A DNA stretch of 41,033 nt from the NCBI GenBank assembly GCA_017534535.1, contig JAFXVZ010000021.1, forward strand, positions 1-41,033. The letters run 5' to 3'. The stretch is from Bacteroidaceae bacterium (lineage in GTDB: Bacteria; Bacteroidota; Bacteroidia; Bacteroidales; Bacteroidaceae). The notes beneath the pieces are model-generated. The model saw nothing but the letters and a program-made list of their open reading frames with translations, was not told where the DNA came from and ran no database searches. The translations under genes and the position numbers were made by a program. Positions 13,812 through 40,559 of the stretch are shown one piece after another; within the stretch, counting starts at the first letter, position 1, and every line of letters begins with the position of its first letter.

Positions 13812-14660
13812 ATGGAAAAGGAAAGAGAATTGATAGACAGACTGATTGATTTGTCGTTTGCAGAAGATATCGGTGATGGCGACCACACCACGTTATCATG
13901 TATCCCAGACACAGCGATGGGCAAGTCGAAGTTGCTCATCAAGGAAGAAGGCATCCTGGCAGGCGTGGAGATTGCCAAAGAAGTATTCCACCGTTTTGAC
14001 CCTGAATTGAAGGTGACAGTATTTATGGAAGATGGTACCCCTGTTAAGCCTGGTGATGTGGCAATGGTGGTGGAAGGCAAGGTGCAGAGTCTGTTACAGA
14101 CCGAGCGCCTGATGCTGAACATCATGCAACGCATGAGTGGCATCGCAACTATGACCCACAAATATCAGGAACGTCTGAAAGGCACCCATACCCATGTGTT
14201 GGATACCCGCAAGACTACCCCTGGTATGCGTATCTTGGAAAAGATGGCAGTGAAGATTGGTGGTGGTATGAACCATCGTATCGGCTTGTTTGACATGATT
14301 CTGCTGAAAGACAACCATGTGGACTTCGCTGGTGGCATTGACAAGGCAATTACCCGTGCCAAAGAATATTGTAAGGCTAAAGGCAAGAACCTGAAAATTG
14401 AGATTGAGGTACGTAACTTCGATGAGTTGCAGCAGGTGCTCGATTTGGGTGGTGTAGATCGTATTATGTTCGACAACTTTACCCCAGAGATGACTCGCAA
14501 GGCAGTAGAGATGGTGGGAGGCAGGTTTGAGACCGAGTCTTCTGGCGGTATCACATTCGATACCTTACGCGACTATGCCGAATGCGGGGTGGACTTTATC
14601 TCTGTAGGTGCCCTAACGCACTCAGTTAAGGGCTTGGATATGAGTTTCAAAGCGTGCTGA
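13812..14660 (+). CDS. nadC: Nicotinate-nucleotide pyrophosphorylase (carboxylating), quinolinate phosphoribosyltransferase
   Basis: 282 aa from ATG 13812; the frame is open from 13785, but that would start inside the promoter. It converts quinolinate and PRPP to nicotinate mononucleotide, CO2 and PPi in de novo NAD synthesis. Hallmarks: EDIGDGDHTT near the N-terminus, the TRKTTPGMRILEKMAVKIGGG active-site stretch, HRIGLFDMILLKDNH, IEIEVRN, MFDNFTPE and the SSGGI-SVGALTHS phosphate-binding end. nadA and nadB are not adjacent. Confidence 0.96.
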   Translation: MEKERELIDRLIDLSFAEDIGDGDHTTLSCIPDTAMGKSKLLIKEEGILAGVEIAKEVFHRFDPELKVTVFMEDGTPVKPGDVAMVVEGKVQSLLQTERLMLNIMQRMSGIATMTHKYQERLKGTHTHVLDTRKTTPGMRILEKMAVKIGGGMNHRIGLFDMILLKDNHVDFAGGIDKAITRAKEYCKAKGKNLKIEIEVRNFDELQQVLDLGGVDRIMFDNFTPEMTRKAVEMVGGRFETESSGGITFDTLRDYAECGVDFISVGALTHSVKGLDMSFKAC

Positions 14661-14676
14661 TGCCTCTGACATAAAG

Positions 14677-14712
14677 AATGGCTGTGCCCTTATGGGGGCA
14701 TAGCCATTGTTG
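14677..14712 (+). terminator. Terminator after nadC
   Basis: Arms AATGGCTGTGCCC (14677-14689) and GGGCATAGCCATT (14696-14708) form a 13-bp stem with one wobble pair and a 6-base loop. Only a weak GTTGTATT tract follows. Confidence 0.65.
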
Positions 14713-14815
14713 TATTAACACTTTTTAGCAATATTGTTTACCTCCCTTTTGGCTTTATCTCCGTCTAAGAGATAGAAAGCATAAGGAAATTGAGCGTAGA
14801 TGTAAGACGAAAGTT

Positions 14816-38184: not shown

Positions 38185-38220
38185 GTTCTCAATGTTTTTA
38201 AGGATTCAACATTCGGTTAT

Positions 38221-38328
38221 TTACCACGATTGTGGTTTAGGACCGCTTTTGCTGGCTTGCAGCAATGTCACACTCTTCTCTAACTTAACAACCTTCATGG
38301 AAGGCTTCACATACTTTTTCTTGTCCAT
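38221..38328 (-). CDS. Small peptide B (35 aa), first gene of the fimbrillin-like operon
   Basis: Read from the minus strand: ATG at 38328, TAA at 38221. It starts MDKKKYVKPSMKVVKLEKS and continues L22-L23-Q24, S26-K27, P30 and a C-terminal Trp35. It shares the key positions of peptide A (Tyr, Lys-Pro, Lys-Val, Glu, Leu-Leu-Gln, Ser-Lys, Pro, final Trp). It has no signal peptide and a strongly basic N-terminus (six Lys in the first twelve). It ends 36 bases before the fimbrillin-like ATG, so the two share the promoter at 38366-38396. I know similar short Y-x-x-P peptides near surface lipoproteins in this phylum only as unnamed open frames. Confidence 0.75.
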   Translation of the reverse strand: MDKKKYVKPSMKVVKLEKSVTLLQASKSGPKPQSW

Positions 38329-38365
38329 AATTCAATAATTTTAAAGATTATTATCATCCAAGCTA

Positions 38366-38396
38366 CAAAGGTATAAAATAAAAATGATAATTGAAA
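38366..38396 (-). promoter_or_regulatory. Promoter of the small peptide B / fimbrillin-like operon
   Basis: Minus strand: -7 TACCTTTG (38373-38366). A near-match -33 TTTC (38396-38393) lies 19 bases upstream. The leader to ATG 38328 is about 33 bases. Confidence 0.55.
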
Positions 38397-38497
38397 ATAA
38401 ATTGTAAAAAAATCACTTTTTTGCCATACTTCATGAATGTACGACTGCATTTGTAAGTGTCCTTTTTCTTCGTATTTCGTATTTAATCGTCTTAAAA

Positions 38498-38529
38498 TTT
38501 GTTAGTTTGATTTGAAGTGATTATATTTG
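38498..38529 (+). promoter_or_regulatory. Consensus promoter of the double-glycine precursor gene
   Basis: -33 TTTG (38498-38501), a 20-base spacer, then -7 TATATTTG (38522-38529). The expected start is about 38534, 18 bases before the ATG at 38552. Confidence 0.75.
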
Positions 38530-38551
38530 TGCAGTTAAATGATATCATACT

Positions 38552-38731
38552 ATGGGAACAGAAGATAACAAGAAGCGTGTCGTGTAGATCGAAATCGACG
38601 ACGAGGTGAAGAAACTCACAGTTGAGGGCGTTGACAAGGATGCCCAAGTGGTGATGAAGCAAGAACTCAGTGATGACGAGTTGGATGGTGTAGCAGGAGG
38701 AGCACATTTCGATGAATGGGAAAGACCTTAG
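38552..38731 (+). pseudogene. Double-glycine-leader peptide precursor interrupted by an in-frame amber codon
   Basis: The frame runs from ATG 38552 to TAG 38729-38731 (59 sense codons), with one internal TAG at 38585-38587 (codon 12). Before it: MGTEDNKKRVV. After it: IEIDDEVKKLTVEGVDKDAQ, then VVMKQ and the leader end ELSDDELDGVAGG, followed by the nine-residue tail AHFDEWERP. The acidic LSDDELDGVAGG end is the classic cleavage signal of peptides exported by C39-peptidase ABC transporters (bacteriocins, RiPP precursors). The tail has no Cys, Ser or Thr, so it is not a lanthipeptide core. The amber is one base from CAG. It may be dead, suppressed, or restarted at ATG 38654. No maturation or export gene is in the window. 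Confidence 0.72.
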
Positions 38732-38760
38732 AACTAAACGATATTGCTTTTAGGTAATTT

Positions 38761-38809
38761 GGTTATGGGTGGATCCTCCTTTTAAACGTTGATTCTCCCA
38801 CCCATAACC
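38761..38809. repeat. 12-bp perfect inverted repeat between convergent genes
   Basis: GGTTATGGGTGG (38761-38772) and CCACCCATAACC (38798-38809) pair perfectly around a 25-base loop. No T-run follows on either strand, so it is not a typical intrinsic terminator, although its place between two convergent genes suggests transcript ending or stabilisation. Confidence 0.65.
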
Positions 38810-38866
38810 ACTAACTACTTCCGTCTAAGTGATATACAGTATCGAAATGGCGAACTGAATCACCGC

Positions 38867-40498
38867 TCATTCTGGTATTGCCTGGATTCTGCCTACATAA
38901 GCGCTCCAGCTAGCTTCTGCCTTGTAATCATCAACGGATGCTGCTGGTACATAGATGGGGCAGTCGTTGGTGTCATCCAGTGCACATACATCAAGTGTTG
39001 GAGGGGTAGTTGCCAAGCAAGTGATGCTCGTCAGACTCCTGCATTCATTAAAAGCAAATAAACCAATTGAAGTCACATCCTTAGGAATGGTGATGCTCGT
39101 CAGGTTTCTACAACCATAGAAAGCAAATTCGCCAATTGAAGTTACACCCTCAGGAATGTTAATGCTCGTCAGGCTGCTACAATCTGCAAAAGCATAATCT
39201 CCAATTGAAATCACATCCTCAGGAATGGTGATGCTCGTCAGGCTGCTGCAATAATGAAAAGCAAATCCCCCAATTGAAGTCACACCCTCAGGAATGGTGA
39301 TGCTCGCCAGGCTGCTGCATTCGGAAAAAGCATGATCGCCAATTGAAGTCACACCCTCAGGAATGGTGATGCTCGTCAGGTTGAGGCATTCATAAAAAAC
39401 ATAATCGCCAATTGAAGTCACACCAGTGAAATACTGTAATTCATCTAAGGAGGTAATGCTGGTATCGCCGCAGAACACGTCGATGTCCGTCACAGCCGCC
39501 GCCTCCCCATAGCTCAGTTCACCATCACCATCCGTATCCCAATATTTGATAAAAATAGTTTTCATATTTTCATCGGCAAAAACTATAGGGTCATCATCGT
39601 TGTGCTGTTTTAGTTCCTCTTCAATATCGACAAGCGTAAAGTTGATGTTATTTGCATGCTTTACTTCCACTTTCTGAGAGGTAGCCTTTGAAACCTCTAT
39701 CGCTTTGCCGTTTTCATCCTTGCCCTTGATGTCTATCGTGAATCCCTTCTCAAAAACCGTAGGAGGCAGGATGAAGAATATATCCATGCTCTCACCTTCT
39801 GTATCGACATTGAAGGAACCTTCTTTGGCGTTGGAATATGGCTTCTCCTTGTCGATTGTGAATACAGGCTCCTCGTCGGCAAGATTGATATACCCTTCTC
39901 CGGCTATCGCCTCACCGTTATTACCCCTGAGAGTCACAGTATGGATATTATAAATCTTTCCTACAGAGACATGAATCATGCCCACGGTCTGCTGGAATGC
40001 GAAGGCACTGCCATCACTCACCACCAACATGGGTGCATCGAAACGGAAGTCATTGGCGTCAGTGGAATTCAGGTCGTCTGGTAGAGAACGGCGTAATATG
40101 TTGCCGCTCAGCACCCAATAGTTATCACCAGGATAAACGGCATAATAAATCTCTTTACTTCTAACCCTCTTTCCTCTAAATGTAGCCTGAGTCCCGTCTG
40201 AGCTAACCAGTGAATACCGTTTCATATCCGCTTCAATGTCGCTAAACACATTGATGCAGTCGCCCTCCGACCAAACAATATGCTTCGTTCCACTCTCTTT
40301 TGGATTGGATATCTGCGCCCTTGTCTGGGTAACATCAGGCATAGTGGCTACTAGTGAAGTGATGGATTTCACCTCTATTCCGGCAACGTCATCTTCGTTT
40401 AAGTCGTCGTTGCTGCATGATGCGAGACCCAAAGAAACGAACATAGCCGCACAAGCTATACCCACATGTTTAACGGATTTCAGTAATTTCTTATTCAT
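38867..40498 (-). CDS. BspA-type leucine-rich-repeat lipoprotein with fimbrillin-like N-terminal domain and EF-hand-like segment
   Basis: 543 aa from ATG 40498; the frame is open from 40558, but the lipoprotein signal begins at MNKKLLKSVKHVG. Lipobox GLASC gives Cys28. Residues about 45-300 resemble a fimbrillin-type domain (FRFDAPMLVVSDGSAFAFQ; MIHVSVGKIYNIHTVTL). A calcium-loop-like DTDGDGELSYGEAAAV follows near 325, then BspA/LRR_5 repeats of 23 residues, each like VTSIGDYAFADCSSLTSI with TIPEG, in six copies, and a capping segment. BspA-type repeats commonly bind host or bacterial surface ligands. Six repeats share an exact 69-bp DNA period (start points 39063 to 39408). Confidence 0.88.
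   Translation of the reverse strand: MNKKLLKSVKHVGIACAAMFVSLGLASCSNDDLNEDDVAGIEVKSITSLVATMPDVTQTRAQISNPKESGTKHIVWSEGDCINVFSDIEADMKRYSLVSSDGTQATFRGKRVRSKEIYYAVYPGDNYWVLSGNILRRSLPDDLNSTDANDFRFDAPMLVVSDGSAFAFQQTVGMIHVSVGKIYNIHTVTLRGNNGEAIAGEGYINLADEEPVFTIDKEKPYSNAKEGSFNVDTEGESMDIFFILPPTVFEKGFTIDIKGKDENGKAIEVSKATSQKVEVKHANNINFTLVDIEEELKQHNDDDPIVFADENMKTIFIKYWDTDGDGELSYGEAAAVTDIDVFCGDTSITSLDELQYFTGVTSIGDYVFYECLNLTSITIPEGVTSIGDHAFSECSSLASITIPEGVTSIGGFAFHYCSSLTSITIPEDVISIGDYAFADCSSLTSINIPEGVTSIGEFAFYGCRNLTSITIPKDVTSIGLFAFNECRSLTSITCLATTPPTLDVCALDDTNDCPIYVPAASVDDYKAEASWSAYVGRIQAIPE
39063..39476 (-). repeat. 69-bp tandem repeats encoding LRR units
   Basis: The landmark CCAATTGAA recurs at 39063, 39132, 39201, 39270, 39339 and 39408, exactly 69 bases apart each time. 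Each unit encodes 23 residues of the BspA-type LRR. Confidence 0.9.
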
Positions 40499-40521
40499 GA
40501 CTTCAATATTTAATTGACTAT

Positions 40522-40559
40522 ATCCTGCAAAGATACAGGATGGAAATGAATAAAGCAAG
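40522..40559 (-). promoter_or_regulatory. Promoter of the BspA-type gene with an overlapping palindrome
   Basis: Minus strand: -7 TATCTTTG (40535-40528). A near-match -33 CTTG (40559-40556) lies 20 bases upstream. The inverted repeat ATCCTG (40522-40527) / CAGGAT (40536-40541) brackets the -7 element exactly, as an operator would. Confidence 0.55.

Follow-up and report, generated by a model that had tools for sequence, protein, structure and literature searches.

A probable recent loss within a dispersed family of double-glycine leader peptides in a Bacteroidaceae draft genome

The systems closest to the locus described here involve precursors with a leader that ends in a double glycine (GG). 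Among the N11P/NHLP precursors, 1 to 12 NHLPs have been counted per genome, and the report includes species for which no TOMM or lanthionine enzyme was identified (PMC2887384). Prochlorosins need the lanthionine synthetase ProcM (PMC10783134). In the Bacteroidota, the regions that hold bacteroidetocin genes have been described as also encoding a TM protein and the transporter, mostly together with a thiol oxidoreductase, the peptides being of similar size and carrying at least two Cys (PMC6671954). The PCAT RiPP clusters described from Bacteroidales were selected with modification enzymes in mind, a radical SAM enzyme being present in eight of nine, and NHLP does not appear in the main text of that study (PMC10352776). 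As for the peptidases, the ComA recognition sequence has been given as L(-12)-xxx-E(-8)-L(-7), and LahT150, a GG-leader protease, cleaved a ProcA derivative in which the leader had been reduced to its last 14 residues (PMC6363468).

Here we analysed a stretch of 41,033 nucleotides (the window), contig C36 in a draft assembly of 2.7 Mb (49 contigs, 89.4% complete, 2.9% contamination). Near its end lies a GG-leader precursor gene with a stop at codon 12. We read it, with a probability of about 0.7, as a recently inactivated copy, one of 19 dispersed precursors with one leader type, unrelated cores and an exporter encoded on contig C35. The features discussed below are the following.

38498..38529, plus strand: Bacteroides-type promoter-like elements, TTTG at 38498-38501, a 20-base spacing and TATATTTG at 38522-38529
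38552..38731, plus strand: GG-leader precursor gene of 59 codons and a terminator, broken at codon 12 (from the reading frame and a profile match)
38552: start ATG of the precursor gene
38552..38701, plus strand: leader, GG at 38701, with the end pattern L(-12)-xxx-E(-8)-L(-7)-xx-V(-4)-x-GG
38585..38587, plus strand: in-frame TAG, codon 12 of the precursor
38585..38620, plus strand: divergent patch, 7 of 36 bases differing from RGIG9776
38606..38731, plus strand: possible restart frame from a GTG, 41 aa, retaining 32 leader residues
38654: later possible restart ATG, retaining 16 leader residues
38702..38728, plus strand: core AHFDEWERP, nine residues
38729..38731: the precursor's own terminator, TAG

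Past codon 12 the frame continues to LSDDELDGVAGG|AHFDEWERP, and the TAG at 38585-38587 is its sole break between start codon and terminator; the GG leader, the AHFDEWERP tail and the single stop lie exactly where the initial annotation had placed them. Chance is no explanation for the frame: a profile of 12 intact paralogues built without the window copy matches it with E = 1.8e-25 and spans the stop. Additionally, residues 1-59 are 92% identical to an orthologue in another metagenome-assembled genome (MAG). None of the NCBIfam and Pfam models reached its cut-off with the precursor. L-12, E-8 and L-7 of the leader fit the ComA consensus (PMC6363468) which, together with a C39 exporter gene in the genome, agrees with the proposal of a leader for C39-type exporters. 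Neither the core nor its leader contains Cys. The gene is flanked by a 513-aa protein, lipoprotein-like by eye and with no NCBIfam match, and by a 563-aa repeat protein.

Upstream of the start codon, a -33/-7 promoter had been proposed, and promoter-like elements are indeed present at 38498-38529, in what we take to be the Bacteroides-type consensus. The pattern TTG-N20-TANNTTTG occurs six times in the window (0.53 expected from dinucleotide shuffles), and 52 of the 54 bases at 38498-38551 are the same as in the RGIG9776 orthologue. Among 75 near-complete family copies, TANNTTTG is found at most 110 nt upstream in 34, against 5.8 expected from mononucleotide shuffles, and is accompanied by the spaced TTG in 19.

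Two orthologues of the interrupted gene have intact frames, keep the GG leader and carry Gln at codon 12. Neither of the outcomes that the initial annotation had named as a refutation, orthologues devoid of the GG leader or further breaks in the frame, was thus observed. The orthologue in RGIG9776, a MAG from yak omasum, has the core AHFEEWVRP, and its neighbouring genes and promoter region are found in the window too. The other, in the MAG RUG12887, has the core ASFEKWVRVQE; its match with the window is confined to some 220 bases, namely the gene and a short stretch beyond, so its orthology rests on leader and core. In a 92-row alignment of the family, which holds one hit beyond the 91-row table of profile hits, the codon-12 column reads Q28 N16 S14 R13 H11 T1 G1 with seven gaps and the window stop, none of the 84 other letters being a stop. 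Given that both orthologues are intact, the TAG appears to be derived in the window lineage, or else to be an assembly error, and a fresh nonsense change, one of the options considered in the initial annotation, would fit best. Translation would be expected to yield an 11-residue fragment without the GG motif, in which case the product of this copy is probably lost. The stop looks like the ordinary loss of one copy. Outside codon 12, the window and RGIG9776 are separated by three synonymous and four nonsynonymous codon changes, too few for relaxed constraint to be shown. The leader of another family member, in G097 (L123:466), is likewise interrupted, by a TAA at another site, while G071 has a similar copy without a break (L118:505); single-copy losses therefore recur.

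Divergence from RGIG9776 varies sharply along the locus. Upstream, 48 of 297 bases differ at 38201-38497, with 19 gap columns. The differences fall to 2/87 at 38498-38584 and, past the divergent patch, to 0/81 at 38621-38701, 2/30 at 38702-38731 and 8/1827 at 38732-40558, before 9/475 with 37 gap columns beyond. Hence 38621-40558 is about 99.5% identical (10 of 1938 bases differ), against about 84% at 38201-38497, intergenic DNA included, and a recent exchange between lineages with an edge within the leader is likely. Inside the patch, the nearest sequence to 38588-38620 is a paralogue on contig C20 (L009:9301), with 2/33 mismatches against 6/33 for the RGIG9776 orthologue, and the leader segments on either side have 0/24 and 0/81 mismatches with that orthologue. 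The simplest reading is that 38588-38620 might be a short gene-conversion tract between leaders with the stop at its edge, a possibility that involves small numbers.

The patch also bears on the possibility that an error of sequencing or assembly produced the TAG and that the living strain has an intact copy. A single break within an otherwise intact frame, with intact orthologues, is what such an error would leave. The assembly is a draft of 49 contigs (89.4% complete, 2.9% contamination), in which many similar leader copies could be mis-assembled, and the stop opens a patch that resembles the C20 paralogue. However, the C20 paralogues have sense codons at codon 12, so that a simple collapse of copies would not yield a stop, and the leader on both sides of the patch is exactly that of the orthologue. 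We regard an error as unlikely, if still worth serious consideration, and a fresh nonsense mutation as the better account.

Alternatively, translation could restart at GTG 38606 or ATG 38654 and give a shortened, exportable precursor. Both starts would retain at least 16 leader residues, including the L-12/E-8/L-7 motif, and LahT150, the closest solved relative of the peptidase, cleaved a substrate with 14 (PMC6363468). Against this, no ribosome-binding motif was seen by eye, and the 88 aligned letters of the Met column include two Leu, one Ile and one Lys, with no sign of selection for an internal start there. We consider a restart rather improbable. A conserved internal start at the methionine of VVM is likewise unsupported by this column.

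Decoding of the amber codon as an amino acid, through a suppressor tRNA or recoding, had been listed as a further option, and the frame is indeed open on both sides of the stop. Yet TAG is the gene's own terminator in the window and in both orthologues. Among the 126 non-overlapping ORFs that reach 200 aa in ten loci, 14 stop at TAG, 39 at TGA and 73 at TAA. A pattern scan for CUA-tRNAs gave 11 matches, against 32 for a reversed control pattern; ARAGORN, run on the loci of the scan, recognised four tRNAs (Thr tgt, Lys ctt, Glu ctc, Arg tct), none of them CUA, a scan of this kind missing tRNAs outside the pattern or in the missing part of the genome. No other letter of the codon-12 column is a stop either, and suppression is very unlikely. 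Finally, a chance frame that is no gene at all has only its shortness to recommend it and is refuted by the profile match through the stop, the 92%-identical orthologue and the conserved promoter region.

The interrupted gene has company, and the same type of leader precedes other peptides elsewhere in the genome. A profile of the 12 intact leaders found 19 strong copies, the window copy included, on contigs C1, C6, C9, C13, C14, C16, C20, C36 and C49, and among these only the window copy has an internal stop; a DNA search of the genome also turned up other copies. Three weak matches (L034, L035 and L036 on contigs C31, C2 and C32; E 0.02-0.9) are GG-leader-like peptides that possibly represent a second leader family or chance. 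Across 158 congeneric genomes the family is present in six, with 90 matches in total, partial ones counted: 19 in our genome (G000), 20 in G063, 7 each in G069 (RGIG9776) and G071, 22 in G097 and 15 in G100 (RUG12887). None of the 93 high-quality genomes carries it, the six carriers being drafts with a completeness of 59-89%. A sample of 399 genomes from the taxonomic family gave matches at 1e-8 in our genome and in one of another genus only. The core and promoter counts refer to 75 near-complete leaders ending in GG, the window copy and the broken G097 copy among them, which were kept from 91 profile hits after 16 partial or GG-less rows had been excluded. One leader copy without the GG end is found at L115:523 in G069. 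In the open-licence literature searched, no description of this leader family was found.

Leaders and cores have followed different courses. Over the 171 pairs formed by the 19 copies of our genome, leader identity has a median of 0.62, whereas mean core identity is 0.171, against 0.166 after shuffling, and no pair exceeds 0.5. In the 75 near-complete copies of the six genomes the cores span 8-159 residues (median 19); Cys is present in 67 and Trp in 21, the window core being among the eight without Cys. Ten copy pairs have cores more than 60% identical, every one of them between genomes, and two of the ten involve the AHFDEWERP type. Two tandem pairs illustrate how cores may change: by eye, the leaders differ at 1/47 residues in the C20 pair (L009) and at 4/48 in a RUG12887 pair (L135), and in both the cores are unrelated. 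Given that near-identical leaders are here joined to unrelated cores, these pairs suggest core replacement. The longest core, of 159 residues, belongs to the family member at L011:4045-4665, where it contains four imperfect repeats around MGMCSGYE; it looks like a multi-product precursor.

The earlier remark that the window holds no partner enzyme stands, in that none was seen there. Elsewhere in the genome, contig C35 encodes an exporter, and it is there, at 14359-14742, that the sole PF03412 (C39) match of the genome lies. The C35 cassette encodes, in order, an HlyD-like protein, an ABC protein with C39, an ABC protein without C39, a membrane-fusion protein and a TolC-like protein. The C39 protein scores 886.6 against TIGR03796, above the cut-off of 853.3. 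The second ABC protein remains below the cut-off of TIGR03797 (680.4, cut-off 709.4), which its G063 relative passes with 718.9, and the HlyD-like protein is below that of TIGR03794 (104.5, cut-off 156.2). LahT150 (6mpz) is the closest of the solved structures to the peptidase domain (3.1e-54), and the alignment covers AVECGAAS, HWNFEHF and NDPA, which presumably hold the catalytic Cys, His and Asp. A TIGR03796 protein above cut-off is also found in the five other leader-bearing genomes, thus in 6/6, and the five-gene order in 5/6, namely our genome and, by eye, G063, G069, G071 and G097; the G100 contig stops after the C39 gene. The C39 match is single in five of the six carriers, G063 having three. 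However, C39 matches occur in 88 of the 158 congeneric genomes, and the co-occurrence of leader and exporter is therefore weak statistical support. By profile, no member of the leader family was found on contig C35. We infer that this NHLP-type exporter serves the leader family.

Maturation enzymes were sought in the same genome, which is 89% complete. No match to LanC-like (PF05147) or YcaO (PF02624) proteins was found in it, and with no enzyme at hand the lanthipeptide and YcaO routes were set aside. SPASM gave a single match, a radical SAM/SPASM protein encoded at L098:1402-2439 (minus strand) and patchy in the genus, which scores 560.8 against TIGR04340 (cut-off 400) and belongs to the ACGX system. 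Its relatives at E <=1e-60 occur in ten of the 158 genomes, four of the six leader carriers and six non-carriers, a distribution that does not track the leader; the protein was rejected as a maturase for this family, and the radical-SAM partner envisaged in the initial annotation is unsupported. By eye, the precursor loci and exporter cassettes offered one possible modifying enzyme only, a radical-SAM-like protein encoded some 2 kb away from the C20 pair (L009:6140-7012). It is without an NCBIfam match at 1e-10 and may still be an enzyme. Given the lack of LanC-like and YcaO matches and a SPASM protein that does not track the leader, an unmodified peptide is favoured. We hold this with moderate confidence, the search having covered LanC-like, YcaO and SPASM proteins and the loci inspected by eye.

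How does the family compare with the systems named at the outset? It resembles NHLP/Nif11 in the acidic LSxxEL...GG leader end and in having several precursors per genome (PMC2887384); its exporter proteins have their best matches in TIGR03794, TIGR03796 and TIGR03797, of which TIGR03796 alone is above cut-off in our genome. Unlike them, the window leader stays far below the precursor models, at 12.6 against a cut-off of 50.9 for TIGR03793 and 15.0 against 32.3 bits for TIGR03798, and the genome yielded no LanC-like or YcaO gene. Like the prochlorosin genes, those of this family are scattered, some singly and some in tandem, and they join a conserved leader and GG to cores that are not conserved (PMC10783134); the difference is that here no LanM/LanC-type gene was found and the leader family is another. 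A GG leader and a C39 transporter also recall the bacteroidetocins, which likewise come from Bacteroidota (PMC6671954), but the cores, of 8-159 residues, are unrelated to one another, the window core lacks the two Cys, and the bacteroidetocin neighbourhood is replaced by the 513-aa and 563-aa proteins, with the only C39 match on another contig. The Bacteroidales PCAT RiPP clusters also combine GG-motif precursors with C39 transporters (PMC10352776), and differ in the points given at the outset. What the present family does display is a GG leader with L-12/E-8/L-7, a C39 exporter in the genome, and a conserved leader joined to hypervariable, dispersed cores.

If intact, the window gene would encode a peptide of about 59 residues, of which the leader of about 50 would direct it to the NHLP-type ABC exporter of C35. 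The C39 peptidase of the exporter would cut after GG, and the nine-residue core would leave the cell through the HlyD-like and TolC-like parts. By analogy, bacteriocins or signals would be the likeliest roles of such peptides. A wider picture can be drawn tentatively, and we give it somewhat less than even odds. Within a small clade of Bacteroidota from the gut, of which one member or more comes from yak omasum, each draft genome might keep some 7 to 22 secreted peptides with one leader type, one NHLP-type exporter and no dedicated maturase, as an unmodified counterpart of prochlorosins. Turnover of the cores would combine births, the replacement of cores, short conversion tracts between leaders and losses through stop codons, the window recording one silencing event. 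The stop itself is ordinary; it is the family, with dispersed precursors, hypervariable cores and one exporter, that is worth following up. With it, the diversification of peptides in gut bacteria could be put to the test, and a single genome would supply one exporter with about 19 natural substrates.

Two further observations concern the neighbourhood of the gene. The 563-aa repeat protein, encoded at 38867-40558 on the minus strand, is 99.5% identical to its RGIG9776 copy; it has weak matches to leucine-rich-repeat adhesins, and the PARCEL repeat is above cut-off. On the other side, also on the minus strand, a 35-aa frame at 38221-38328 begins with MDKKKYVKPSMKVVKLEKSVTLLQAS and is identical to RGIG9776 in its first 26 residues, with a different tail. 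It is another small peptide with a conserved front and a variable end.
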